DNA from: an uncultured Myxococcales bacterium
GTDB lineage: Bacteria; Myxococcota_A; UBA9042; DTJE01
Direction of reading: 5' to 3'
Length of the DNA stretch: 39,838 bases
NCBI GenBank assembly: GCA_903936705.1
Contig: CAIZWN010000006.1
Location: 1-39,838, forward strand
This document shows positions 8,605 through 21,165 of this stretch, piece after piece. Each line of letters opens with the position of its first letter. Within the stretch, counting starts at the first letter, position 1. The notes under the pieces were generated by a model. The model did no database searches and was not told the DNA's origin. It worked only from the letters and a program-made list of their open reading frames with translations. Position numbers and translations under genes: made by a program.

Positions 8605-9921
8605 TCAGAACGCCAGGTGGCGAGCGTCCAGGAACCGCTGCGCCAGCGCGACGGCCCCGTTGAATCCCATCCAGGGCATCGGGTACAGAGCATGTTTACC
8701 CACGGCGGGATAACCCAACTGGACGACCGCTCTGGGCCGGGAAGTCGGCATGGGAAATGTTGTCTGGATCCCGGATCCCACCAGCAGGTCCACAGGGCCC
8801 TCGGCATCGGCTAGGGCCAGCGCTCGGACACCGCCGTCGCTGGACGCGCCGACGACCACGCGGGGAGGTCGAGTCCACTCCGCGCCCAGGCGCTCGGCCG
8901 TTTCCCGAAACCGGCCCTCGTCACCATCATCCCCGTCTGTCAGGACCACCAGAGGAATCTCGAGACCCATCTCGAACAAGCATGCCGCCACCGCCCCGGC
9001 CATGGCCGTGTCCAGGAAAAGCGCAACGGACGTACCCGCAAGGCGCCGGGCCGCATGCTCGACCAGCGGGACGGCACGCGACAGTTCCTTGTCAAGAATC
9101 GCCTCGATACGCGCGGCAGGTACGCCGGCGGCCGAGCCAAGCCGTCTCACAAAAGTCGCCGAGCCGGTCAGGCCGACCGGGAGGTCCACGTCCACCAGCA
9201 CTCTCGAGCCGGCACGTGCCTCCAGGACCGGGCGGATCCGCCGGGCATACGGCATCATGGCCACAGTTCCGGCCTCACCGGCCCGCCGAAGGGTCGCCAG
9301 GGGCTCGCCCGACAGCATCAGTGCAGGAATCGACAGGTCCATCGCGCGCAGCAAGCGACGAATCTCGGCCAAATTCGCGACATGATCCATCTCGTAGCGG
9401 TCAAACCGGTAGCCGGCCAGTGCCACCTTCGCGGGATCGGCGGCGGCATCCCAGTCGACCATTGCGGCGATGGCTTCAACCACCCGCTCGTAACCGCGCG
9501 CCATGCCGCCGTCATACCCTGGGGCCTTCAGCAGGATCACTGGACACGGCAGCTTCGAGCGCAGCGACTCGACGGCGGCTTCCACGTCGAAGGCCGACAG
9601 GTCGATCACCGCATTTGTCGCGACGAAGAAGACAGCAGGCTTGCGACGCTGATACCAGGTAGTAGCGAACTCCACCAAACGATCTCCCGAGCCCTGGATC
9701 AGGCGCAGGTCGTCGACACCCGTCCACAGACGCTGGTTATGCGATTCGCGAAACCAGTCGTGCTCGACCAGGTGCAACTGTGTCTTGAATTTACAGCCGA
9801 CCGTCGTGTGCAACAGCAGCAGCGCATCCGGGATCGCGTGGACCGCCAGGAAGATCCCGAACAGGTCGCCGTGATCAGAATCCTTCAGCTCGTAGCGGCT
9901 GGCACCGTCGTCTGGAATCAC
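8605..9921 (-). CDS. Nitrogenase component-1-like protein, subunit B1
   Basis: The 438-residue product starts at a GTG (9919-9921) that overlaps the TGA of the A1 gene (GTGA) and has GGAGAGGG just upstream, so the two are translationally coupled. It resembles the oxidoreductase/nitrogenase component 1 family (NifK, BchB and similar). The N-terminal pattern AVHAIPDALLLLHTTVGC places Cys43 at the position of the cluster ligand in the NifD/K HGxxGC motif. An HDW motif lies 11 residues later (54-56). Rossmann-like repeats follow: KVALAGYRFDR, the EIRRLLRAMDL helix and LVDVDLPVG, then PVDLLVGSGIQ near the end. It is clearly paralogous to B2, sharing GY..DR, the D-H..N pattern and FVRRLGSAAG. Only one conserved cluster cysteine is visible, so it probably supplies one ligand to an interface cluster in an A1/B1 dimer. 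Substrate unknown. Confidence 0.82.
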   Translation of the reverse strand: MIPDDGASRYELKDSDHGDLFGIFLAVHAIPDALLLLHTTVGCKFKTQLHLVEHDWFRESHNQRLWTGVDDLRLIQGSGDRLVEFATTWYQRRKPAVFFVATNAVIDLSAFDVEAAVESLRSKLPCPVILLKAPGYDGGMARGYERVVEAIAAMVDWDAAADPAKVALAGYRFDRYEMDHVANLAEIRRLLRAMDLSIPALMLSGEPLATLRRAGEAGTVAMMPYARRIRPVLEARAGSRVLVDVDLPVGLTGSATFVRRLGSAAGVPAARIEAILDKELSRAVPLVEHAARRLAGTSVALFLDTAMAGAVAACLFEMGLEIPLVVLTDGDDGDEGRFRETAERLGAEWTRPPRVVVGASSDGGVRALALADAEGPVDLLVGSGIQTTFPMPTSRPRAVVQLGYPAVGKHALYPMPWMGFNGAVALAQRFLDARHLAF

Positions 9922-11291
9922 GCGCCCTCTCCCTTGCGGCCACCCGACCAGCGACCGAAGCGCCGCTCGAACACAGGAGTTCCGGCGCGTTCCAGTATGC
10001 GGCAGGATTCAGACGCGCCCCGATATCCGCTGGGAAAGCGACCCATCTCGACCATCGGGATCCCCACCCGAACGGCCTGCCCGCGAAGGAAGGACGAAAG
10101 GTAGACCAGGTCGTATCCTCCAGCCTCCAGGACCGGGGCCAGTGCCGCAGGCTCAGCGAAAAACCGGTAGGGCAGGTCGACTGACATGGCGGCCAGGTTA
10201 CGCTGAATCCTCTGGTGGCCCTCGGAGGTGTCACGCTCCTGAATCACCAAGTCGATCCGGAACCCCAGTTCCAGCAGCAGCGGAAGGTCGGCCAATCCCT
10301 CCTGGGCCAGCTGGTCTGAACGAAAGTTGTGGTGGGACCCAATGCCGTAAGCCAGCCGCCGCCCAGCCCAGCGCATGCGCGCCCCAGCGGTAGCCAACAC
10401 CGCGGCCGCCCGGCCCTCGTACGCCTGAAGAATGTCAGTCGCGTCGCGGCCGGCCGCTCGCGCAAGGCCCAGGTAGAAGGCGTCGGTCGCCGAGATCCCC
10501 TTCGGCTGGGGCAGTTCAACCGACGCCTGGCCGGAGCTTTCAAGAAGGTCCATCAGGGACCCGAAGACCGCGCGGTCTGACACCGCAGTGAGGGCGGCAC
10601 GCGGCAACCCGGTCCAATCCGCCATCGTCGCGCCCGAGGGAGCGGCCGCATTAAGCCGCAGGCCCATACGGGCAAGGAGGTCCACCACCTCCTCCCGGAA
10701 GGCCATCCTCTCCTCAGTCCAGGGCACGTCCGCACCGGTCTGGTAGCCTACCAGGTTGACCCCGTCTGGATCCCGCACGCCGTCCTCGCCCAGTTCGGTC
10801 AGCAACGTACGGACCATCCAGTCGACCGTCTGTGCCTGCGTGCGTGGCTGCAACCCGCTGGTCGGCACCCAAACGATGCGGATTCCCGTCTCGTCCTGCA
10901 CCCGCCGGCAGGCAGGCTGCGGATCGGCCCCGATCATGTCCGAGAGGCACGTCCCCAGCACCAAGATCGCACGGGGCCGCCGCGAGATTGCGACAGCACG
11001 GAGACAGTCGGCCAGACGTTCCTCGGCGCTCCCTGCGACGGCGTCGATCTGGGACAGCGACACCGAGAACACATTCCAGGGCCGGCGCTTCGTGAATGGC
11101 ATGATGCGGGGGAAAGCGTTCGCACAGTCCCGCTCGCCGAAGACGACGACGGCGTGGTCTCCCTCGATCTCGGCCAGGAGAAACAGAAAACCCGTCATCG
11201 TGCAGCCGGGCTGCGCTATCTCGCCAGCGGTGCGCCTTTCCGGAAGGGTCCCGGCTTCACTCATTCGGTCGTCCCACGGTGGGAGGCCCAT
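9918..11291 (-). CDS. Nitrogenase component-1-like protein, subunit A1
   Basis: This is a NifD/E/BchN-like polypeptide. Numbered from the ATG at 11289-11291 it has 457 residues. Three cysteines stand in the order and spacing of the cluster ligands of component-1 proteins: Cys30 (AQPGC), Cys56 (FGERDCANAF, 26 residues later, the same distance as in NifD) and Cys115 (VLGTCLSDMIG, equivalent to the TTC/TECPxxLIG motif). NLVGYQ, a GLRLNA segment and AYGIGSHHNF follow in the Rossmann domains. I could not find the Cys and His that hold FeMo-cofactor in NifD. The frame is open to 11414, but that start has no ribosome binding site and adds a non-homologous Arg-rich stretch. ATG 11291 has GGGG four bases upstream, and ATG 11264 is also possible. 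It overlaps B1 and follows the CoA-transferase on the same strand. Confidence 0.83.
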   Translation of the reverse strand: MGLPPWDDRMSEAGTLPERRTAGEIAQPGCTMTGFLFLLAEIEGDHAVVVFGERDCANAFPRIMPFTKRRPWNVFSVSLSQIDAVAGSAEERLADCLRAVAISRRPRAILVLGTCLSDMIGADPQPACRRVQDETGIRIVWVPTSGLQPRTQAQTVDWMVRTLLTELGEDGVRDPDGVNLVGYQTGADVPWTEERMAFREEVVDLLARMGLRLNAAAPSGATMADWTGLPRAALTAVSDRAVFGSLMDLLESSGQASVELPQPKGISATDAFYLGLARAAGRDATDILQAYEGRAAAVLATAGARMRWAGRRLAYGIGSHHNFRSDQLAQEGLADLPLLLELGFRIDLVIQERDTSEGHQRIQRNLAAMSVDLPYRFFAEPAALAPVLEAGGYDLVYLSSFLRGQAVRVGIPMVEMGRFPSGYRGASESCRILERAGTPVFERRFGRWSGGRKGEGA

Positions 11292-11426
11292 GATACCCCA
11301 TTTCGCGCCCCGAACGCTGGACCGCCCACGGTCCGGCATGTCGCCCGAAGCATTGGACACCTTCCACCGGGACGCATCGGTCCCGTGCTCCCGACACCGG
11401 ACCGGCGGCTTCATGCTGAAATCGTT

Positions 11427-13889
11427 TTAGATGTTCCCAGACCGCCAGGCAAAAAATCCCCAACGAACCAGGCTGGCCAGCCACGGCAGGTATGGGGGAT
11501 CCTTGGGATATGGCGAGACGTTGTGTCCTTCGGGGACCTCTATTCCAACCCTGGCAAGTGCCTCGCGAGTGTTGGCGCCCCGCAGCGGTGGTGGGGCCAG
11601 GTTCACCAGCGGCGTTCGCGACAGGCGCAGCGGACTGCGCAGGACGGCCATGTCCATCGGGCATCCGGGATAGGTCTGTTTCCGCAGGGGCACGTCCAAA
11701 CCAAGGTTCAAGCCCTCCAGGTCCTTCAGCAACGTGCGAAGCTTCTGCGACGGCATCAGTACGACCCGGTCGGCAAGTCCTGCTGCCACCAGCCCGTTCT
11801 GCAGGGTTACAAGGGACTTCCAACGCAGCCGGTGCCCGACTTCCTGAAGCTGGCTTGCCTTGTCTTGCGAAAATTCGATGCCCAGGCCGGCCAGCCATGC
11901 CGACACGTCTCGTCGCGGACCGACGACACACACGTTACCATCCCTTGTCCTGACGATGTCGGCCAACACCTCGAGCCCTGCGTCGATTACCTGCGGAGTA
12001 CCCCGCTGGGCCGCCGCCCGCAGGCATGCGTCACGTTGCACCGCAGCAACCTGCCGTACTTGCAGCAGGACCGCTACCCAGGTCAGATGGGTCGTGACGA
12101 AGACGCCCTGTCCAGTGCGCCGCTGATGATACAGACCCAGCAGGGCAGCCATGGCCCCCGACAGGCCGGATCCGATGTCGATGACCGGGGTGGGCAGCAG
12201 CCGCGGCCGCCCCTCCTCGCCGTAGGTCATCTGAATACCGGAAACCGCCTGGACCACTTGTTCGAAGCCTGGGCGCTCCTGCCAGGTCCCCTTGTCCCCA
12301 TAGGCATTCAAGTGGGCGTATACGAGATCGGGGAACTTCGCACGCAGAGTCTCCGGACCAACGCCAACGACCCGGGCCACATCCAGATGACGGTAGTTCT
12401 GCAGCACGACGTGGGGTTCAATATCGCCCAGGACCGCCTGGATGGCCAGTTTCCCGGCGTCGTCAGCGGCGTCGATCGTCACCGACCGTTTACCGGCATT
12501 GAACATCAGGTGGAATGACAAGGCCCAGTCCAGACTGGTCGGGCTCTGGATCGAGGTGACTTCGGCCCCCAGCTCGGCCAGGACGCGCGCGGCACAAGGC
12601 CCGGCAATGATCCGGGACAGGTCGACCACCCTGATGCCAGCCAATGGCGGTTGGGGCTTGGACAGGACAGAAGATTCGTCCTCCGGCGTTGGGCTTGATC
12701 TGGGCACTGCCTCCCAGGCCTCCAGCCATTTCGGAAGAACCGAGGCATCCTGGATTCGCGGCCCGATAACCGCCGGCTGCTCGGGACAGACTACACCGGG
12801 GCCGGGCAGAATCATTGAACCGAAGACCGGGTCGTTAACCACGCTGGCGTCGGACATCCCGGCATCCAGCGAATCCCGCAGCCATTCGTCAATGGTGCGC
12901 ACCTTGATGCAGCAAAGTTCCTTGCCAAGGGACGCCTCCCATTCATCCGCGGTTCGCAACAAGAATATTCGTTTGAGTACCCGGACGATCTGGCGCGCCT
13001 CGGAAATGCTGCCCACCTGGCTGGGGTCACGCATCGTCTGTTCGGACAGAACCGCGCGCAGCTCTTCGGCCTGCTGGGCAAGGCCAGCGCCAATCAATAC
13101 GTCCAGCAGGCGTGCATTGTGGGATGGCAAGGTAACGTGCAGGTATGCCCACCGGCCGTCCCTGCATTCCCAGGACTTCATGAAAGGCGTGGCGACCAAC
13201 TTCAGCGGCAGGAACCCGCGCGGCACACCGGTCCGCATCAGCACCAGCAGGATTTGGGCAAAGAGACTGGACCCGAACAGGTTCGCCTCGACGTGCTGGC
13301 CCCTGCCCGAGTCCTGTCTGGCAACAAGGCCGGCAATGACGCCGCTGGCAGCAAACAGCGCCCCGAGAATCGAAGGCACAGGGAATAAGTGGAACCTGGG
13401 GCTGCCCAGCGCACGCTCGTAAAGGCATCCCGCCGCACCTGCCATCGCATCGCCAGCCTGCGAACGCGATCGTGGATCTGCTGTCGTGAAGGCAGGAATC
13501 GTGCAACTGATCAGACCAGGATTCACACCGGCCCGGATCCGGTCGAAATCCAGGCCCCATTTGACAAGAGTGTCCGCCGACAAATCAGTGACGACCACGT
13601 CAGCCGAAGCGACAAGACGATCAATGCTTGCCCGGCCCTCAGAGGTGCAGGGGTCGATTGCGACTTCCAGCTTGCCCCGACCCAGGATCGCGTCAAGCAC
13701 CGGGTCGACCGACGGGCACGCCAGATCAACCACGCCAACCACCTGGGCTCCCTGCTCGGCCAGCAGCATGCCCAGCACCCGGGCAGCAAGTCCGCCGCCC
13801 AGATCCACGACCCGCAGACCGGCCAGCAATCCCGCCGGCACTTCACTCGTCGCCTTGGAGGCTGTTGCCGCTTCCTGTTGAAAAGTCAT
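11427..13889 (-). CDS. Fused tandem class III (CaiB/BaiF) CoA-transferase
   Basis: The 820-residue protein is two family III CoA-transferase domains in one chain (about 21-390 and 415-820). Each half opens with the family signature: LAGLRVVDLGGGLAARVLGM, and LAGIRVVDLSRIIAGP followed by ARVLAELGAEV. The catalytic carboxylate that carries the CoA thioester in this family falls at Asp147 (QAGDAMAGA) in the first half and is a glutamate, Glu543 (RPGFEQVVQAVSGI), in the second. RRTGQGVFV and the DGRWAYLHV segment support the fold. Family members move CoA between carboxylic acids in the cytoplasm. Fused double forms are known, for example DddD, which also adds CoA to an organosulfur acid, but identity of substrate cannot be inferred. 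It is the first gene of the left arm, followed by A1 and B1. The start at 13889 follows GGACGGCGG; an upstream in-frame ATG at 13997 adds no homologous sequence. Confidence 0.9.
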   Translation of the reverse strand: MTFQQEAATASKATSEVPAGLLAGLRVVDLGGGLAARVLGMLLAEQGAQVVGVVDLACPSVDPVLDAILGRGKLEVAIDPCTSEGRASIDRLVASADVVVTDLSADTLVKWGLDFDRIRAGVNPGLISCTIPAFTTADPRSRSQAGDAMAGAAGCLYERALGSPRFHLFPVPSILGALFAASGVIAGLVARQDSGRGQHVEANLFGSSLFAQILLVLMRTGVPRGFLPLKLVATPFMKSWECRDGRWAYLHVTLPSHNARLLDVLIGAGLAQQAEELRAVLSEQTMRDPSQVGSISEARQIVRVLKRIFLLRTADEWEASLGKELCCIKVRTIDEWLRDSLDAGMSDASVVNDPVFGSMILPGPGVVCPEQPAVIGPRIQDASVLPKWLEAWEAVPRSSPTPEDESSVLSKPQPPLAGIRVVDLSRIIAGPCAARVLAELGAEVTSIQSPTSLDWALSFHLMFNAGKRSVTIDAADDAGKLAIQAVLGDIEPHVVLQNYRHLDVARVVGVGPETLRAKFPDLVYAHLNAYGDKGTWQERPGFEQVVQAVSGIQMTYGEEGRPRLLPTPVIDIGSGLSGAMAALLGLYHQRRTGQGVFVTTHLTWVAVLLQVRQVAAVQRDACLRAAAQRGTPQVIDAGLEVLADIVRTRDGNVCVVGPRRDVSAWLAGLGIEFSQDKASQLQEVGHRLRWKSLVTLQNGLVAAGLADRVVLMPSQKLRTLLKDLEGLNLGLDVPLRKQTYPGCPMDMAVLRSPLRLSRTPLVNLAPPPLRGANTREALARVGIEVPEGHNVSPYPKDPPYLPWLASLVRWGFFAWRSGNI

Positions 13890-13976
13890 CCGCCGTCCAC
13901 CATCTTGCGACTTTGAAAACCCTTCCCACACAACACCGGCGTTGTCCAGACAGTCTCCCCTTGAAACCGCCTTGCT

Positions 13977-14030
13977 TCCTGCAAACTTGCGCCCCAATAT
14001 GGCGTTTGCTAGATTCTATCGCTTGCAGGA
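13977..14030. repeat. Inverted repeat around the NifH-like operon promoter
   Basis: TCCTGCAA at 13977-13984 is matched by its exact reverse complement TTGCAGGA at 14023-14030. The two arms flank the predicted -35 and -10 boxes of the right arm and lie inside the 156-base divergent region. The arms are 38 bases apart, which is too long for a simple dimer operator, so two half-sites bound cooperatively or chance are both possible. The right arm overlaps the only purine-rich stretch that could serve as ribosome binding site. Confidence 0.35.
13987..14015 (+). promoter_or_regulatory. Predicted promoter of the NifH-like / A2 / B2 / radical SAM operon
   Basis: TTGCGC (13987-13992), a 17-base spacer and TAGATT (14010-14015) fit a sigma-70 type promoter with four of six matches in each box. 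No sigma-54 GG-N10-GC element was recognised. The start codon follows 30 bases later. The opposite-strand promoter for the CoA-transferase must lie in the same divergent region (13890-14045), but no good match is visible. Confidence 0.45.
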
Positions 14031-14045
14031 GTCGGAACCCACCGC

Positions 14046-14867
14046 ATGGAAAAGATCGCCATCTATGGAAAGGGCGGCATCGGAAAGTCGTTCATCGCGA
14101 CCAGTCTCAGCGTCAGCTATGCGATGTCGGGCCGCAAGGTCCTGCACGTGGGATGCGACCCAAAGCATGATTCTGCAATCCGCCTGATCGACGGGCAGGT
14201 CGAGGTCCGGACCGTTCTTGACGTGCTTGGGGACGACCCTACGGCCAACGCGACCGCTCAGATCCTGAACCGCGGTCGACACGGGATCGACGCCTGCGAG
14301 GCAGGCGGCCCCGAGGCAGGCCTGGGCTGCGGGGGGCGTGGCGTGGCTCGGATGATCGAGTACCTGGACGAGACCCGCCTGCTGGAGACCGGCGGCTATG
14401 ACGTCGCCATTTTCGACGTGCTGGGCGACGTGGTATGCGGCGGATTCGCGGCCCCGTTGCGCGAGGGTTTTGCCCGAAAGGTGCTGATCGTCGTTACCGA
14501 CCAGCCGATGGCGCTGTTCGCGGCCAACAATATCAGCCGGGCCGTCCTGGCGTACCAGCGGAACCACGTGGTGCTGGCCGGGCTGGTGCTGAACCAGGTG
14601 GATACCGGGACCGACCGCGGCATAATCGATCGGTTCGCCGCGCGCATCGGAACCCGGACCCTGGCCTCGCTGCAGCACGACACCAGGATCATGGACGGAG
14701 AGCGCCAGCAACGCACAATAGTCGAGCATGCGCCCGATTCGGTCCCGGCCCGTGCCATCGCGGAACTCGGCAACACCGTGATGGCGATCCGGCCAGATGA
14801 TGTTCCCCTGCCGACGCCCATGACCGATCAGGAATTCTTCGCGTTCCTGCGAGAAGGGAACGGGTGA
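14046..14867 (+). CDS. NifH/BchL/BchX-like ATP-dependent iron protein (reductase component)
   Basis: The 273-residue product is a complete Fe protein of the nitrogenase-like family. It has the P-loop GKGGIGKS (8-15), switch I/GCDPKHDSA (36-44), the first [4Fe-4S] cysteine Cys95 in GLGCGGRGV, switch II DVLGD (124-128) and the second cluster cysteine Cys131 in GDVVCGGFA. The homodimer is expected to bind one [4Fe-4S] cluster between subunits and pass electrons to component-1 proteins with ATP hydrolysis. GKSF instead of GKST recalls BchX, while GCDPKHDS recalls BchL, and no nif or bch genes are nearby. It is the only Fe protein in the window and heads the right arm. A2 starts 4 bases after its stop, so co-transcription is nearly certain. 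It may serve both A1/B1 and A2/B2. Confidence 0.93.
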   Translation: MEKIAIYGKGGIGKSFIATSLSVSYAMSGRKVLHVGCDPKHDSAIRLIDGQVEVRTVLDVLGDDPTANATAQILNRGRHGIDACEAGGPEAGLGCGGRGVARMIEYLDETRLLETGGYDVAIFDVLGDVVCGGFAAPLREGFARKVLIVVTDQPMALFAANNISRAVLAYQRNHVVLAGLVLNQVDTGTDRGIIDRFAARIGTRTLASLQHDTRIMDGERQQRTIVEHAPDSVPARAIAELGNTVMAIRPDDVPLPTPMTDQEFFAFLREGNG

Positions 14868-14871
14868 CTGC

Positions 14872-16722
14872 ATGAGCGAGGCAACCCGTGCGGCCGATCG
14901 CCTCGCCGGCAAGCGTTGGAGCGGGGGTGTCGCCAGTCGGGACCGCGTGGCCCACCTCCTTGGACTGGATTCGGCTCCCGAACCGTTCCGGGTGCAGTCC
15001 GTGGCCTGGGAGTCCGGGCGTCTGGAAGCCCACGTCGCAACGGGACAAACAAAGCCACTGATCATCGATATAGCGCCACGTGATTCGAACGGCAGCGCGT
15101 TCGTGCTGACCGACCACCTGATGGTCTCGTACCGGGGAAAGAACCTGCCCGTCGAGGTGGGGCGCGCCATTCACGACCACGCGCCCGATCGACTGGCGGT
15201 CCTGACGCCCGACGATCTGGCGGGCATGCTGCTGGACGATCCGGATTTCGTCGAGAGGCCAATGCCCGGGACAATTCGAATCAGACCCGCGGGCCAGCTG
15301 GACTCCTGGGGCAGCGAGGACGGTTGGGCCGACTTCTTTGCAGCCGGCGAGATCGCGCGCGCCAGGCTTGACTCCATCGACCCGACCAGGCTGTTCAAAT
15401 TCGTGCAGCACGGCGACACTGAGTGCTCGCAGGTCTCGCCCCACGGGATTGCTCCGGTCGTGATGATGGTCGAGTACCCGTGGGACGACCGGATCCGGAA
15501 CGCCGGCATGCCGCCCTACGTGCGGTGCCAACCGCGGCCGAAACCTGGCCCCCTGGAGGACGTCCTGATCACGACTGACCTGACCGAGCAGGACGTGATT
15601 CGAGGCAACCCGAAGAAGGTCGAGGACATCCTGGAGGACATCGTCCGTGATTCCGGTCCTGCGCCGCTATCGGTCTTCTTCAGCAACACCTGCGTCCCGT
15701 CCGTCACTGGGCAGGACGTCGAATCGGTCGTTCGCAGGCACGCTTCGAAAAGCCCTTTCCCGATCCTGTTCCTGGATGTGACACCCCGGTCGATGCTGGA
15801 CGTGTTCCGTAGCTTGCTTGTGGATCGACGCAAGGAGGCGGAGGCAGCCGCAGGCGCGCCCGACCCGGCAACAATCAACCTCGTCGGCTATCCCGACACA
15901 CGCGCTACCGCCGAAGTTGGACGGATGTTGGAGGCGTTCGGTGTCCACGTAAACTGCCGGTTCATACCGGACATTGGAGAGGAACTGATCGCGCGCCTTC
16001 CAAACGCCTCCCTGAACGTGGTGATGCCCAACCGAATCTGGCAGAACCTGTACGACCAGGTCGCCGAGGACACTCGTACCCCGTCGATTTCACCTACGGC
16101 GCCCTATGGTCGAGAAGGCTCGCTCCGATGGGCAGAAACGATCGTGCGCACGCTGGGACTGGACGTTGACGTCGCGGCCGCCTGGAGGGAATATTCTGCC
16201 CCCTTTGAACCGGCCTGGCAGCGCGCAATCGCCCGGGCCAGCGGGCACCGGTTGGGTTTCGCGATGCGTGGACGGGACGTTCACTACCTGACCGACCCGG
16301 CTGATACCTGGGGCATCCCGCTGGTTCAGACCATCCAGGAGGCAGGCTTCGGCATCGACGTGCTGCTGCGACTGACTAATCCGCAGGACGCCCGTTCCAA
16401 GGCGGGAGAGGTCGCCGCGTTGTTCCATACCCCCCACGACCACACCATCCTCGGATTCGACTCGTTGGAGATGATGCGTTCGCGACTGGCCAATTCGCGC
16501 TGCGAGGCTTTTCTGTCTCACCACTTCTTCGACTGGCGACTGGGTGAGGCCGGAAAGAACCGCTTCTCACTGCGGTACTTCGAAATAGGGCTTCCCGGCG
16601 CGATCCGTACCGCTGAACGGCTGACGACGGTCTGCGCAACGCCCTTCTATAGGAAGTATCGACGATTCCTGGCAAGGACCCCCGAAGGGCTGCGCGCGCC
16701 ACCAGGACAAGGTGTCGCATGA
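14872..16722 (+). CDS. Nitrogenase component-1-like protein, subunit A2, with N-terminal extension
   Basis: The 616-residue product is longer than usual for NifD/K-like proteins (about 420-520). The component-1 part starts near residue 170. Cys185 (GDTECSQVSPHG) resembles the first cluster cysteine region. Cys219 (YVRCQP) follows, and Cys274 lies in FFSNTCVPSVTGQDV, the typical C-V-P-x-x-x-G-x-D ligand motif. ITTDLTEQDVIRGNPKK is the T-D-L-x-E-x-D-V-I-x-G segment of NifK/E-like proteins. NLVGY and the AGFGIDVLL segment are shared with A1. Residues 1-165 have no family match that I know. They contain a beta-rich stretch (LIIDIAPRD, FVLT, MVSYRGKNLP) that resembles the start of the radical SAM protein. 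The stop overlaps the ATG of B2 (ATGA). It probably pairs with B2 and is reduced by the Fe protein. Confidence 0.86.
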   Translation: MSEATRAADRLAGKRWSGGVASRDRVAHLLGLDSAPEPFRVQSVAWESGRLEAHVATGQTKPLIIDIAPRDSNGSAFVLTDHLMVSYRGKNLPVEVGRAIHDHAPDRLAVLTPDDLAGMLLDDPDFVERPMPGTIRIRPAGQLDSWGSEDGWADFFAAGEIARARLDSIDPTRLFKFVQHGDTECSQVSPHGIAPVVMMVEYPWDDRIRNAGMPPYVRCQPRPKPGPLEDVLITTDLTEQDVIRGNPKKVEDILEDIVRDSGPAPLSVFFSNTCVPSVTGQDVESVVRRHASKSPFPILFLDVTPRSMLDVFRSLLVDRRKEAEAAAGAPDPATINLVGYPDTRATAEVGRMLEAFGVHVNCRFIPDIGEELIARLPNASLNVVMPNRIWQNLYDQVAEDTRTPSISPTAPYGREGSLRWAETIVRTLGLDVDVAAAWREYSAPFEPAWQRAIARASGHRLGFAMRGRDVHYLTDPADTWGIPLVQTIQEAGFGIDVLLRLTNPQDARSKAGEVAALFHTPHDHTILGFDSLEMMRSRLANSRCEAFLSHHFFDWRLGEAGKNRFSLRYFEIGLPGAIRTAERLTTVCATPFYRKYRRFLARTPEGLRAPPGQGVA

Positions 16723-18098
16723 AACCGAACGACCTGAAGCCGTCGGTTCCCGCAGAATCCCCTGGGCATCCGGCTGAACCAAGCCGAGACTGGTCTTCGC
16801 GCGTGACGTGGTCGTACGTCGTGGGCGTCTACACGGCTGTGAACGCCATTCGCGACGCCTGGGTACTGGTAGAAGGGCCGGATTGCGCACATCTAAAGAC
16901 GCAGTACCTGCAGGGCAACCACGACTGGAACTCGACCTTGACCAGCGTTTCCGGATTTCACCGAGTCGCCAACACGGCGTTGCACCCCGTACACATGACC
17001 CGATCACGCGAGAAGGCCATCCACGGCGCTCTGACGCAAATCGCTGGCCATCCCGCGACTTCAGGCCTCCTGATGACCTCGATGCCGATGGCGTCGGTCA
17101 CTGGTGCCGACTATGCCCGGCTGTGTGCCGAGGTAACGGAATCGTCGCACAAGCCAGTGGTGCACGTACCGGGTCGGTCGCTCAGCGGCGACTGGATGGA
17201 CGGCTATGCGGAAACGCTGTTCTCGCTGGCTCGCCGCCTGGACCTGACCGGCGGCACGCCAATACCGGACAAGGTCGCCATAGTCGGCTACCTGCACGAC
17301 CGAAACGAGGGGGATCACCGCGCCAACGTGCGCATGCTGCGAGAGATGCTGGCCGCAATCGACCTGGAAGTGACCTCGATCTGGCTGGAAGGCCAGGCGT
17401 TCGCCGATCTTTGCGCCGTTCGCGACGCTGGAACAATCCTGTCCTTCCCTTATGGCCGCAAGGCTGCTGCCTGGATCGCCCAGCGGACAGGCGCGCGCCT
17501 GATCGAATGCGAATTGCCATTCGGCCCGGCAGCGACCGAGCGATGGCTGCGGCAGGTCGGCAATGCCACGGGGCGCGAAGGCCAGGCCGAGGCCCTGATC
17601 GAACGTGAACTGGCCGAATGCATCCCTCCCCTGGAATGGGTCGTACCGCACGTCTTCCAGCACCGGCGGCTCGCCTGGATCGGCGATCCACACATGGTGA
17701 GAGGGTTCAAGGAGTTCACGGACCTCGTCGGAGCACGACTTGTTGCCGCCGTAATCACCAACCCGACGGCCCACTCGGCCGGCCTGGCCCAGTTCCTGGG
17801 GGAGGACGTCCGCCTGCTGGTCTGGCCGCGACTGCGCGAGATGCTGCGTTTCCTGTCTGATCTGGGCAGCGATGAACCGATCGACTTGCTGGTGACGAAC
17901 CAGGCTGGGGTCGGGCAGATGCCGGTCGCCACGGTCGAGTTCGGCTTCCCGACCCTGTACACGCATTGTCTTTACGAACGACCCTTCCTGGGCTTCCGTG
18001 GCTTCCTGGCCTTCGCGGACCAGCTGGCCAATGCGATCAGCCAGCGGGGAATCTTCGAGGCCGGGTCGACGCCTACCCGGACCTGGCACGGGGGCTGA
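16719..18098 (+). CDS. Nitrogenase component-1-like protein, subunit B2
   Basis: The 459-residue product is the partner of A2 and a paralogue of B1. After a Pro-rich 25-residue leader comes AVNAIRDAWVLVEGPDCAHLKTQ, with Cys56 at the cluster-ligand position of the HGxxGC motif and an HDW motif at 68-70, 12 residues later (11 in B1). KVAIVGYLHDRNEGDHRAN, the MLREMLAAIDLEV helix and WLRQVGNATG align with B1 residue by residue over long stretches, which shows that the two pairs come from one duplication. As in B1, a single conserved cysteine is visible. The gene overlaps A2 by four bases and is followed by the radical SAM gene after 7 bases. The function in the complex is inferred from NifK/BchB. 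The substrate is unknown. Confidence 0.85.
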   Translation: MKPNDLKPSVPAESPGHPAEPSRDWSSRVTWSYVVGVYTAVNAIRDAWVLVEGPDCAHLKTQYLQGNHDWNSTLTSVSGFHRVANTALHPVHMTRSREKAIHGALTQIAGHPATSGLLMTSMPMASVTGADYARLCAEVTESSHKPVVHVPGRSLSGDWMDGYAETLFSLARRLDLTGGTPIPDKVAIVGYLHDRNEGDHRANVRMLREMLAAIDLEVTSIWLEGQAFADLCAVRDAGTILSFPYGRKAAAWIAQRTGARLIECELPFGPAATERWLRQVGNATGREGQAEALIERELAECIPPLEWVVPHVFQHRRLAWIGDPHMVRGFKEFTDLVGARLVAAVITNPTAHSAGLAQFLGEDVRLLVWPRLREMLRFLSDLGSDEPIDLLVTNQAGVGQMPVATVEFGFPTLYTHCLYERPFLGFRGFLAFADQLANAISQRGIFEAGSTPTRTWHGG

Positions 18099-18105
18099 TG
18101 CCTGT

Positions 18106-21100
18106 ATGGACAAGCCAGCGCAAATAAAGCCCCTAAACGAGGAACCGCTCACCTGGGTGGACCGGCTGCTGGCACTGCTGCGCAAGGTGGACCTGCCCGT
18201 AATCCGGCTCATCGCCGTGGATGGAACCCTGGACATCGAAATGTCCGGTTCGGCCGGTTCGGTACTCCGGGTCGAAGTGCGCCCGCGTGGTACCTCTTTA
18301 CACCCTCTCGCGACCGGCGAACGCTTCGAGTACACCGACCGGGCGTCTGCGGACCTTCCAGCAGACGACCTCCGGAAGATCCACCTGCTTGTGGCCGTGC
18401 TGCAGCGTCTCGAGCCACGTCTGCCTGCATCGTGGCAGGGCGTCACTGTGGCGGGAGATCCCGGCCACGAACGACCCGACATCTTCAATCGCCGCTTCCC
18501 GTTTGCTACGCTGGATCGAGCCACCAGCGAAGGGACGACCGACACCGAAGTGCTGGTCCGCCTGACCCCGCGATGCAACCAGCGGTGCGAATTCTGTTCG
18601 GCCCCCTCGGTGGAACAGCCAACGCGCGCTCAGATCGTCGCCTGTCTGGATTGGGTCGCGGCCCACCTTCCAGGGGCGCACGTGACGTTGACGGGAGGCG
18701 AGCCGACCCTGTCGCGCGACTTTCGCCACGTCCTGCGGCACGCCCTGGCCAGCCCCGGCATCGCGGGCGTCCAGGTGCAGACGAACGCGGTCGGATTCGC
18801 CGCAGCGGGCCGTGTCGATGCGCTGCCCCTAGACGATCGGCTGGACTACTGGGTGTCCCTGCATGCTCTCAATCCCACGATCTACGACGAGTGTACTGGC
18901 ACGTCTGGCCAACTCCTTCCCGCTATCCGCGGCCTGCGCCGCCTGCTGTCGTCAGGGGCGCGGGTCGCCCTGAACATCGTCGTGTGCCGCTACAATCTCG
19001 CCCATCTCCCAACTCTGGTGCGCAATCTGCCGATCCGGCTGGCCGGGCTGCCCATGCCCGAGATCCATTTCTCCACGCTGATCTGCCCTGATGGCCGGCC
19101 CGACACCGCGGACCTGCTGGTCAGGTACACCGATCTGCTCCCCGTCGTGACGGCTGCGGCGGCAATAGCGACCCGACATGGCCTGGCCGTGCAACCGCTG
19201 GTCGGCAGCAGCCATGCGGCGATCCCACCGTGCCTGGTACCACCAAATGACCGCATTAGAATGGTCCACCGGCCGGAACCGATGGAAGGCGAGACGGGAT
19301 ACGAGGATCTGCGCAATCCGTGGGTCAAGGCCTTCTCCTGTCGGACGTGCGTGCACTCGGCCCGTTGCCTGGGCGTTCCCAGGGACTACGTTCGACGATT
19401 CGGCCTGGCCGAATTGCGGCCCATCCGGCAAGACGACAGCCTGGACGACGCCGGGCCGTTGCGAGCAGTGGTCCCGCTGGAACCCACGTTCGACCGGACC
19501 GGGCCGATCGACACAGACGGTTTGGCGGAAATCGCACTTTCGACGAAGACGGCACTGGATTTCACGTTCCGACTGACGCGAGACTCGATGGCCCGGGTGG
19601 GTGAACTGGTCCCGCTGGCCGCCCGCCTGGCCCTGAACCCGGGATGCAGAGCATCACTGGTTTTGGAATTACCGGACGCCGGGACGCGGCTTCCTGACGG
19701 GGATGCCCCGGTCCCTTACTCGGCGCTCGACACCCTGCCGGGACCGCTGAATGCCCTGCGCGGCGAAGTGGTACGGGTCCGCGTATACGGGGAACGCCCA
19801 CTCTGCCTCTTCAACGAAGCCCTGTCCATGGCACTGCCGGTTGTAACCGCAGACGGACGGACCGGCAAGGCGCCCGGAGGTTCAGTCCACGGCCCGCTGT
19901 GCGCGGATTGCGCGATGCTGCCCGCATGCCCTGGGGTCAGTTCATCGTATGCGACACTCTTCGGCACCCGGGAATTGAAGCCGTTTTTCAGGACCGGTCC
20001 GGATGGGTCCATCCCCGAATGGGAGCAACGGCTGCGCTGGCTGCTGCTGGACCGTCCAGCCATCAGCGTGACGCTGGGGGAGATCCTTCCTCCAGCTCTG
20101 CTGCCCCAAATACCCTGCGTACTGCCCTGGACACGCCTTGAACTGCATGACGGCGGGACCGTTGGTCCCTGCTGCTCAGACTGGATGTCAGTCCGCGAGG
20201 CCACATCCCGACCACTCGACCTGCATGCACTCTGGTCGGGCCAACTAATGGCGTCCTTCCGTGAATCCCTGCTCACCGCTGACCCATCCGCCACTTGCCG
20301 GGCGTCGTGCCCCGTGCTGGCGGGCGGAACCCACAAGCCAGCGGGATTACTGCTAACTGGTGGTCCGGCGGCCGTCGTTGAGAACCAGGTCCGTCTGGTT
20401 CGCGCCCTGGTAGAAGGGCGAGTCAAGGCCGACTGGGATCCGTTAACCTTCTGCTTCGCTGCGACCTCAAGCTGCAACTACGACTGCCTGATGTGCGACT
20501 GCGGCCAACGAGGGACGCTCTCGGACCAGATGCCGACGACGTTCTACCGCGACCTGGAACCCTGGGTAGAGCGGCAGGTGGAGATGGACGTGAACGGCGG
20601 AGAACCGCTGGCCTCCCCAACGTTTCGAACGTTCCTCGACCGGTTGGCCATCCCTGGGGCAGCTGCGCTGGTCGGGTTGGTCACCAACGGGTCGTACCTG
20701 ACGCCACGCCGCCTTGCCCGCTGGCAGCGGTTGCCATTCCGCGCAATCACCGTAAGCCTGAACGCCGCAACGCCCGACACATACCTCGCGGTGAACCGCG
20801 GCCTGACGTGGGATCGGATCCGCGTGAACCTTGAAGAGTTGCTGCGTTTACGCCGTAACGGACTGTGGCTGGGCGGGCTGACCTGGAGCATGGTGATCCT
20901 GCGCCGCAACGTACACGAGATTCGTACGTTTGCGGAAATGGCCCTGCATGACGACGTGGACGTGCGCTTCATGCTTCCTGCTCACGATCGTAACGGCCAG
21001 AGCATCATGACGGACGCCACTGTCATGGAATCGGCGCGAGCAGCGCTCACGGACGTTGCGAACAGGTTGGAAGCGCTCCATAGAAACCGCTCGGCGCGCG

Positions 21101-21165
21101 ACGCCCGGGCGCTGGTCGCAGTGCTGGCTGATCGACTGACTCGTAAAGTCCTGGACCCGCTTTGA
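18106..21165 (+). CDS. Twin radical SAM protein with extra Fe-S cysteine motifs
   Basis: The 1019-residue product starts at ATG 18106, 7 bases after the B2 stop. It has two complete radical SAM domains. The first has CNQRCEFC (Cys157, 161, 164) and GGEP (197-200). The second has CNYDCLMC (Cys790, 794, 797) and GGEP (831-834). Between them the motif C-x2-C-x5-C-x-G-V, then Tyr and FG-x2-EL-x-P, appears twice (from Cys412 and Cys599). These may be auxiliary Fe-S sites. A SPASM-like C-x2-PW segment ending in GPCC (671-690) leads into the second domain. The block at 440-630 looks like a partial copy of the C-terminal half of the first domain, without its own CxxxCxxC. Residues 1-120 resemble the A2 extension. 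Its position at the end of the operon suggests substrate activation or cofactor maturation for the nitrogenase-like pairs. It lacks the NifB arrangement, and the function is unknown. Confidence 0.9.
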   Translation: MDKPAQIKPLNEEPLTWVDRLLALLRKVDLPVIRLIAVDGTLDIEMSGSAGSVLRVEVRPRGTSLHPLATGERFEYTDRASADLPADDLRKIHLLVAVLQRLEPRLPASWQGVTVAGDPGHERPDIFNRRFPFATLDRATSEGTTDTEVLVRLTPRCNQRCEFCSAPSVEQPTRAQIVACLDWVAAHLPGAHVTLTGGEPTLSRDFRHVLRHALASPGIAGVQVQTNAVGFAAAGRVDALPLDDRLDYWVSLHALNPTIYDECTGTSGQLLPAIRGLRRLLSSGARVALNIVVCRYNLAHLPTLVRNLPIRLAGLPMPEIHFSTLICPDGRPDTADLLVRYTDLLPVVTAAAAIATRHGLAVQPLVGSSHAAIPPCLVPPNDRIRMVHRPEPMEGETGYEDLRNPWVKAFSCRTCVHSARCLGVPRDYVRRFGLAELRPIRQDDSLDDAGPLRAVVPLEPTFDRTGPIDTDGLAEIALSTKTALDFTFRLTRDSMARVGELVPLAARLALNPGCRASLVLELPDAGTRLPDGDAPVPYSALDTLPGPLNALRGEVVRVRVYGERPLCLFNEALSMALPVVTADGRTGKAPGGSVHGPLCADCAMLPACPGVSSSYATLFGTRELKPFFRTGPDGSIPEWEQRLRWLLLDRPAISVTLGEILPPALLPQIPCVLPWTRLELHDGGTVGPCCSDWMSVREATSRPLDLHALWSGQLMASFRESLLTADPSATCRASCPVLAGGTHKPAGLLLTGGPAAVVENQVRLVRALVEGRVKADWDPLTFCFAATSSCNYDCLMCDCGQRGTLSDQMPTTFYRDLEPWVERQVEMDVNGGEPLASPTFRTFLDRLAIPGAAALVGLVTNGSYLTPRRLARWQRLPFRAITVSLNAATPDTYLAVNRGLTWDRIRVNLEELLRLRRNGLWLGGLTWSMVILRRNVHEIRTFAEMALHDDVDVRFMLPAHDRNGQSIMTDATVMESARAALTDVANRLEALHRNRSARDARALVAVLADRLTRKVLDPL

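Follow-up and report, generated by a model that had tools for sequence, protein, structure and literature searches.

Nitrogenase-like genes with a twin radical SAM neighbour in a Myxococcota genome

Few nitrogenase-like reactions are known, and all of them are chemically remarkable. DPOR has a single [4Fe-4S] cluster at its subunit interface and no large cofactor, the organic substrate being bound directly (PMC12552129). Mar carries true nitrogenase clusters, the P-cluster and [Fe8S9C] (PMC12552129). In the Isr system of Rhodobacter capsulatus (IsrBHDK or nflBHDK) a radical SAM gene lies in an operon with H-D-K-like genes and all four genes are required; IsrDK group with Mar/Nfa in Group IV (PMC11423573). 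Here we describe a locus from an uncultured member of the Myxococcales, contained in 39,838 nucleotides of contig CAIZWN010000006.1 (hereafter the window), in which genes for a NifH-type Fe protein (FeP), two pairs of component-1-like subunits (A1B1 and A2B2), a twin radical SAM protein and a class III CoA-transferase form two divergent arms. We consider it probable, if only just, that the right arm encodes a new DPOR-like, ATP-driven reductase acting with its radical SAM partner on an organic substrate, that A1B1 is a paralogous pair, and that the CoA-transferase became their neighbour through rearrangement.

The window represents contig C6 of a 4.85-Mb Myxococcota genome in 84 contigs, 96% complete. 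Our survey covered 379 genomes of the phylum and 13 of the family; in the labels below G denotes a surveyed genome (G000 being the window's own), L a locus and C a contig. The features are as follows.

8605..9921, minus strand: B1, component-1 B-type subunit, 438 amino acids (PF00148, E 3.7e-46), one conserved ligand Cys, C43
9918..11264, minus strand: A1, component-1 A-type subunit, 448 amino acids from its likely start, ligand Cys C21, C47 and C106
11311..11415, plus strand: U32 peptidase gene relic spanning about 35 codons at 60% amino acid identity, with an intact copy on contig C20 of the same genome
11427..13889, minus strand: tandem class III CoA-transferase, two CoA_transf_3 halves (PF02515 twice, E 1.5e-93)
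13890..14045: divergent intergenic region, 156 bases if the CoA-transferase starts at ATG 13889 (from the sequence)
14046..14867, plus strand: FeP, NifH-type ATP-dependent reductase, 273 amino acids (PF00142, E 3e-72)
14872..16722, plus strand: A2, component-1 A-type subunit, 616 amino acids, with an extra N-terminal domain (PF00148, E 5.1e-27), ligand Cys C185 and C274
14914..15291, plus strand: N-terminal domain of A2, with a homologue at the N-terminus of the twin radical SAM protein (hhalign, hidden Markov models, structural models)
16719..18098, plus strand: B2, component-1 B-type subunit, 459 amino acids (PF00148, E 3.1e-46), ligand Cys C56
18106..21165, plus strand: twin radical SAM protein, 1019 amino acids (PF04055 twice, NF033640; motifs; model)

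An earlier note on this DNA, made from the sequence alone, had named these seven genes and their domains, and Pfam confirms them all, intact and above gathering scores. Its 156-base gap between the arms likewise holds with the CoA-transferase start at ATG 13889, the frame itself, with its two PF02515 stretches, reaching 13997 (11427-13997, minus strand). Membership of the nitrogenase superfamily is indicated by FeP, which keeps the P-loop GKGGIGKS and both cluster-Cys motifs (LGCGGRG and DVVCGGFA), by the PF00148 subunit pairs and by the modelled fold of A2, which matches NifD and NifE (Foldseek and VIA-align, the VIA-align list covering A2 residues 197-605). The tight operon joints that had been described stand for A1/B1 (overlap of 4 bases), FeP-A2 (gap of 4), A2/B2 (overlap of 4) and B2-radical SAM, where the stop at 18098 is followed after 7 bases by the chosen ATG at 18106 within an open frame of 17998-21165 (plus strand). 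They do not stand for CoA-transferase/A1. The A1 frame stays open to 11414 (498 amino acids; 9918-11414, minus strand; PF00148, E 1.7e-36), but the alignment with orthologues does not begin until about residue 52-60 of that frame. The probable start of A1 is therefore ATG 11264, which leaves a gap of about 160 bases to the CoA-transferase stop; the U32 relic lies in this gap, and a tight joint there is doubtful.

None of the nitrogenase-like proteins reaches an equivalog cut-off in NCBIfam. FeP scores 241.9 bits against CfbC (cut-off 402), 238.4 against NifH (394), 187 against BchL (345) and 166 against BchX (331), while A1 scores 49.8 against NifE (505) and B1 52.5 against the NifEN fusion model (1229). 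In an IQ-TREE phylogeny of 54 Fe proteins the window FeP falls in a clade of ten with other A2B2-linked Fe proteins (support 97/89), separate from the NifH, Mar-like, BchL and BchX rows, although the Bch rows are long branches and their exact placement is unsure. The row JAADHL010000255 in this tree is a same-family relative labelled Myxococcota. A component-1 tree of 55 rows unites all A-type proteins of the group, A1, A2 and others, in one clade (100/99) and all B-type proteins in another (97/97), both standing apart from NifD, NifK, NifE, NifN, Mar-like and Bch proteins. Both trees were built without CfbC, CfbD, archaeal BchX-type, Isr or experimentally proven Mar full-length sequences, the Mar-like rows being Chlorohelix plasmid proteins rather than proven Mar. 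Because the scores lie far below cut-off and the clades are separate, FeP and the component-1 proteins appear to belong to none of the Nif, Bch, Mar-like and CfbC families, the last being judged by profile score and not by tree. The earlier view of divergent nitrogenase-like proteins fitting no characterised family is thus upheld, as is the separate Fe-protein clade by which it was to be checked. Within both component-1 clades A1B1 and A2B2 form mirrored branches, which points to an ancient duplication inside the group, comparable with that of NifDK and NifEN in theirs. This ancient paralogy of the two pairs, inside a single A clade and a single B clade that are both new, is one of the new findings here, along with the Cys pattern, the radical SAM fusions and the shared N-terminal domain described below; a search of the open literature, subscription papers lying outside it, turned up no description of this Myxococcota group.

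Three modules prove to be conserved separately: FeP-A2-B2-twin radical SAM, A1-B1 and the tandem CoA-transferase. The first is complete and in the same order at L004, L035 and L038, its A2-B2-radical SAM end is retained at L029, L031 and L036, and pieces of it lie on the fragmentary contigs L032 and L063. Its flanks differ at every locus, and none of the neighbours recurs (CobW-type GTPases and an ABC ATPase at L004, an OPT transporter and an outer-membrane efflux protein at L031, a DUF483 protein at L038). The adjacency of B2 and the radical SAM gene, of the kind known from IsrBHDK, is nevertheless conserved. As the window's genome holds about 82 radical SAM matches over cut-off in its 4.85 Mb, repeated adjacency to A2B2 despite changing flanks is not expected by chance. 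In the tree, Fe proteins from another genus and from another family are nearer to the window FeP than is that of G191, a genome of its own genus; this suggests horizontal transfer of the right arm.

A1-B1 occurs in 10 of the 13 family genomes as a pair with no neighbouring Fe protein and with unrelated flanks; the genes beside it (GH123, CysRS, M16 peptidase, PLD, kinase, AIRS and others) show no pattern that would serve as a substrate clue. In family f3 a more distant A1-B1 pair adjoins its own Fe protein, of another clade. Both A1B1 and A2B2 are present in 8 of the 13 family genomes and neither in 2, the remainder (1 and 2) having a single pair, and this co-occurrence is too weak to argue for joint function. 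All three modules are found together in 7 of the 13; in the other family genomes examined they lie on separate contigs or far apart, and only in the window's genome are they adjacent. The survey for the seven genes that had been set beforehand as a refuting test thus goes against the proposal as far as linkage is concerned, and the idea of seven genes forming one conserved system is not supported.

Several further arrangements were seen in the survey. Divergent from FeP-A2-B2-radical SAM at L004 (1241-4683) are genes for two CobW/HypB-type GTPases and an ABC ATPase, besides additional radical SAM genes, and at L035 a related second radical SAM gene stands upstream of FeP. The window's genome holds a third FeP-A-B set on contig C68 (L007, 9255-13413), with no radical SAM neighbour. 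In genus g5 (L048 and L051) three successive component-1 genes, in the order A-B-A, have conserved neighbours suggestive of sugar metabolism (GH35, phosphofructokinase and a glucosamine isomerase-like gene) together with a U32 peptidase. Five loci of family f1 (L105-L107, L109 and L110) have an Fe protein followed by a single component-1 protein of about 357 amino acids, a CfbCD-like two-gene architecture; those tested group with the B-type subunits, and the protein at L106, where dapB adjoins, has no NCBIfam match.

The metal ligands distinguish these proteins further. The invariant C21, C47 and C106 of A1 align with the cluster Cys of NifE, and the single invariant Cys of B1, C43, with a Cys of NifN, so that A1B1 has the 3+1 interface set of NifEN. 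A2 retains C185 and C274, having lost the first Cys position, and B2 retains C56, giving 2+1. In the alignments neither A1 nor A2 has a Cys in the NifD C275 column (Asp, Gly or another residue stands there) or a His in the H442 column, and B1 and B2 lack the other two P-cluster Cys of NifK; the NifDK set of 3+3 P-cluster Cys with NifD Cys275 and His442 is thus found in neither pair. No NifB over cut-off was detected in the 13 family genomes, the window's included, whereas two control genomes pass; the family's matches to the NifB profile cover its NifX-like end only. The Cys of each pair would fit one interface [4Fe-4S] cluster. With the C275, H442 and extra P-cluster ligands absent and no nifB over cut-off, the pattern is that of cofactor-less reductases such as DPOR, not that of nitrogenase or Mar (PMC12552129), and the earlier statement that no metal-cofactor ligand set could be found is borne out. 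Selenocysteine was also considered, in-frame TGA codons having been reported within some A-subunit matches; those inspected (L054 and L055) proved to be ordinary stops at the gene's end over which the match had run, and the idea was dropped.

A cofactor-less pattern of this kind, resembling DPOR and CfbCD rather than nitrogenase, would also suit a tetrapyrrole reductase of the DPOR, COR or CfbCD type, with a porphyrinoid substrate and a radical SAM enzyme modifying the same ring. CfbC is among the two best NCBIfam profiles for FeP, and the GTPases beside the cluster at L004 are of a CobW/HypB type. We nevertheless regard this as unlikely, though still worth bearing in mind, given that every score lies below the curated cut-offs and that bch, cfb and cob genes are absent from the neighbourhoods examined.

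Cofactor assembly is an improbable alternative. On this view a complex cluster destined for A2B2 would be built by A1B1, serving as a scaffold in the manner of NifEN, and by the twin radical SAM protein as a NifB-like maturase. Among solved structures A1 does match NifE best, the 3+1 Cys set agrees, A1B1 and A2B2 are paralogous in the manner of NifEN and NifDK, and the radical SAM model matches NifB as well, lower in its list. The position of the large cluster in NifD and NifE, however, has no Cys in these proteins, and besides the absence of NifB the supposed scaffold and its client are separable: A2B2 with the radical SAM gene occurs without A1B1 in G181, G203 and G191, and A1B1 without A2B2 in G079, G158 and family f3.

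The partnership of A2B2 with the radical SAM protein is indicated by more than gene order. The twin protein comprises an N-terminal domain, a first radical SAM domain (CNQRCEFC), two SPASM-like Cys segments, a twitch segment and a second radical SAM domain (CNYDCLMC), the two motifs both being of the form CX3CX2C; in structure comparison its model comes closest to viperin and to SPASM peptide maturases. Its N-terminal domain is shared with A2: hhalign gives the pair a probability of 90.9 (E 1.1e-6), none of five control segments exceeding 2.3%, and the two match each other reciprocally in iterated hidden Markov model searches. The separate AlphaFold models of the two proteins show this domain with the same order of helix, four strands and helix. 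It has no Pfam match, and a search of the window's own genome returned, besides A2, only weak matches, one in a fusion protein on contig C44 and one unexplained. In three genomes a radical SAM domain is in fact fused to an A subunit, namely the window's (the C44 protein, 897 amino acids), G206 (889) and, from another family, G203 (1148); in the C44 and G206 proteins, iterated searches locate the shared domain with one of the fused parts on either side of it. Fusions of FeP to A occur in G226, G133 and G093.

Together with genes for a B-type subunit and a twin radical SAM protein, the C44 fusion (L102, 7814-13844) makes up a sister system within the window's genome, and on contig C76 about 16 radical SAM matches fall within 46 kb (about 4-50 kb). 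Large proteins are encoded near several Fe-protein loci (L038, L039, L089, L043, L054 and L055), with a DUF483 match at L038, and some of them carry a C-terminal copy of the shared domain.

If the right arm is the DPOR-like reductase we propose, it may work as follows. FeP, reduced by ferredoxin and charged with MgATP, would dock on A2B2 and, on hydrolysing MgATP, pass low-potential electrons one by one to an interface [4Fe-4S] cluster predicted to be held by C185 and C274 of A2, C56 of B2 and one further ligand. From this cluster the electrons would pass straight to an organic substrate, held in the A2B2 cavity itself, and reduce it, with no FeMo-co-like cluster in between. The twin radical SAM enzyme, recruited through the N-terminal domain it has in common with A2, would subject that substrate, or its carrier, to radical chemistry either ahead of the reduction or following it. 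A1B1 would be a second reductase pair with no Fe protein of its own here, presumably borrowing one. We thus infer ATP-driven reduction, direct substrate binding and joint action of the radical SAM enzyme and A2B2. Four points weigh against this picture. Only three Cys, not four, have been assigned as cluster ligands in A2B2; the confidence of the models is modest (mean pLDDT 65 for A2 and 73 for the radical SAM protein); both nitrogenase-like modules directly flank the same CoA-transferase, an odd coincidence if that enzyme is irrelevant; and in genus g2 (L085 and L086) the CoA-transferase has, at a distance of about 2 kb, a radical SAM gene that includes the shared domain.

One phylum, on this evidence, holds a separate branch of the superfamily with several paralogous systems per genome and no FeMo-co-type ligands, and with fusions to radical SAM and Fe-protein domains as well as a domain common to reductase and radical SAM enzyme. 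The branch offers testable evidence for the coupling of radical SAM chemistry to ATP-driven low-potential reduction outside nitrogen fixation, a matter left open by the work on Isr and Mar. A more speculative proposal, which we think unlikely, is that the shared domain lets the nitrogenase-type reductase and the twin radical SAM enzyme recognise one and the same substrate, borne on a carrier such as a peptide, which they modify one after the other. Were this true, no nitrogenase-like enzyme before it would have had a part in the maturation of peptides or natural products, and it would be a founding member of a superfamily that diversified within the Myxococcota.

The CoA-transferase had been taken to point to a CoA-bound substrate. 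That it belongs to class III is supported by the PF02515 pair and by the motif VIDIGSG, with the catalytic Asp, in its C-terminal half, the N-terminal half lacking it. The tandem protein is full length or nearly so in 8 family genomes, with a contig-edge fragment in a ninth, and is found at 46-51% identity in G200, G093 and G078. At the other loci retrieved no FeP, A or B genes lie beside it. In G060, a genome of the same genus that is 96% complete, no Fe protein above cut-off, no A1 and no A2 were found. Its CoA-transferase is 78% identical to the window's and has the same left-hand genes (lip375, 77%; por578, 86%; the 4942-5532 gene, 74%), being some 195 bases from lip375, with A1B1 exactly absent. 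The piece of broken U32-peptidase gene between CoA-transferase and A1 in the window (11311-11415) marks a rearranged junction. From the synteny with G060, this relic and the position of FeP in its tree we conclude that rearrangement brought this neighbourhood together and that a CoA-bound substrate finds no good evidence in the CoA-transferase; it is probably a bystander, a conserved metabolic enzyme. Once it had proved independent, a DddD- or BbsEF-type identity was set aside as a clue to the substrate. Between CoA-transferase and lip375 in G060 (L081, 11949-12150) repeated GGTGTCTGTCCCCATTTT motifs occur in both orientations, REP-like, and occupy the site where the window carries A1B1.

The earlier proposal that all seven genes serve one ATP-driven reduction pathway on a CoA-bound substrate, with the CoA-transferase loading or unloading CoA, accordingly seems to us quite improbable. 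It could draw on the physical adjacency and the shared 156-base divergent region, on the joint presence of the tandem CoA-transferase, A1B1 and A2B2 in the seven family genomes mentioned, and on the g2 radical SAM gene. The linkage is nevertheless confined to one genome with a rearranged junction, the CoA-transferase is retained in G060 as well as in G200 and G078 with no nitrogenase-like matches, and, conversely, A2B2-radical SAM in G181 and G203 and A1B1-FeP in family f3 occur without this tandem type. A Mar- or Isr-like C-S-cleaving reductase with nitrogenase-type metalloclusters, its radical SAM protein equivalent to MarB/IsrB, is very improbable, for although in Isr and Mar, too, the HDK genes are accompanied by a radical SAM gene that is essential or linked (PMC11423573), and among solved structures FeP matches MarH (9fmg) best, the six P-cluster Cys of Mar and its cofactor ligand Cys270 (PMC12552129) are both lacking in A1B1 and A2B2, and the proteins are separate from Mar-like ones in both trees.

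Set beside described systems, the locus shares something with each. Neither the ligand pattern nor the shared domain seen here matches the descriptions of Isr (PMC11423573) and Mar (PMC12552129). Isr also has its radical SAM gene in the operon of the H-D-K-like genes, but here the cofactor Cys is absent and the radical SAM protein is a twin one with a domain in common with A2, while in some genomes radical SAM and A form a single fused protein. MarHDK (9fmg, 9d9u) provides the closest solved Fe protein, and MarK the best solved match of the B1 profile, yet the P-cluster Cys and the ligands of Cys270/[Fe8S9C] are missing and no clade with Mar-like proteins is formed. NifEN resembles A1B1 in its Cys set and in the structural match of NifE to A1, but it differs in its large-cluster Cys and in having NifB, NifX and NifDK as a partner system, quite apart from the low NifE score. 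In CfbCD, whose CfbC profile FeP matches about as well as that of NifH while staying short of the cut-off, CfbD is a single-subunit homodimer, whereas A and B are distinct here. The benzylsuccinate CoA-transferase BbsEF has subunits matched by both CoA_transf_3 halves; in the window these are fused into one polypeptide, and the class III enzyme is not linked to nitrogenase-like genes elsewhere. In design the locus resembles DPOR (BchL-BchNB or ChlL-ChlNB), with its NifH-type Fe protein, its heterotetrameric component 1 and a single interface [4Fe-4S] cluster, as predicted here, with no large cofactor. From DPOR and COR the locus is set apart by context, no chlorophyll (bch) genes occurring in the neighbourhoods examined, and by scores far below the cut-offs for BchLNB and BchXYZ, and from DPOR also by an A2 that lacks the first Cys and has gained an extra N-terminal domain, and by its obligate twin radical SAM neighbour.

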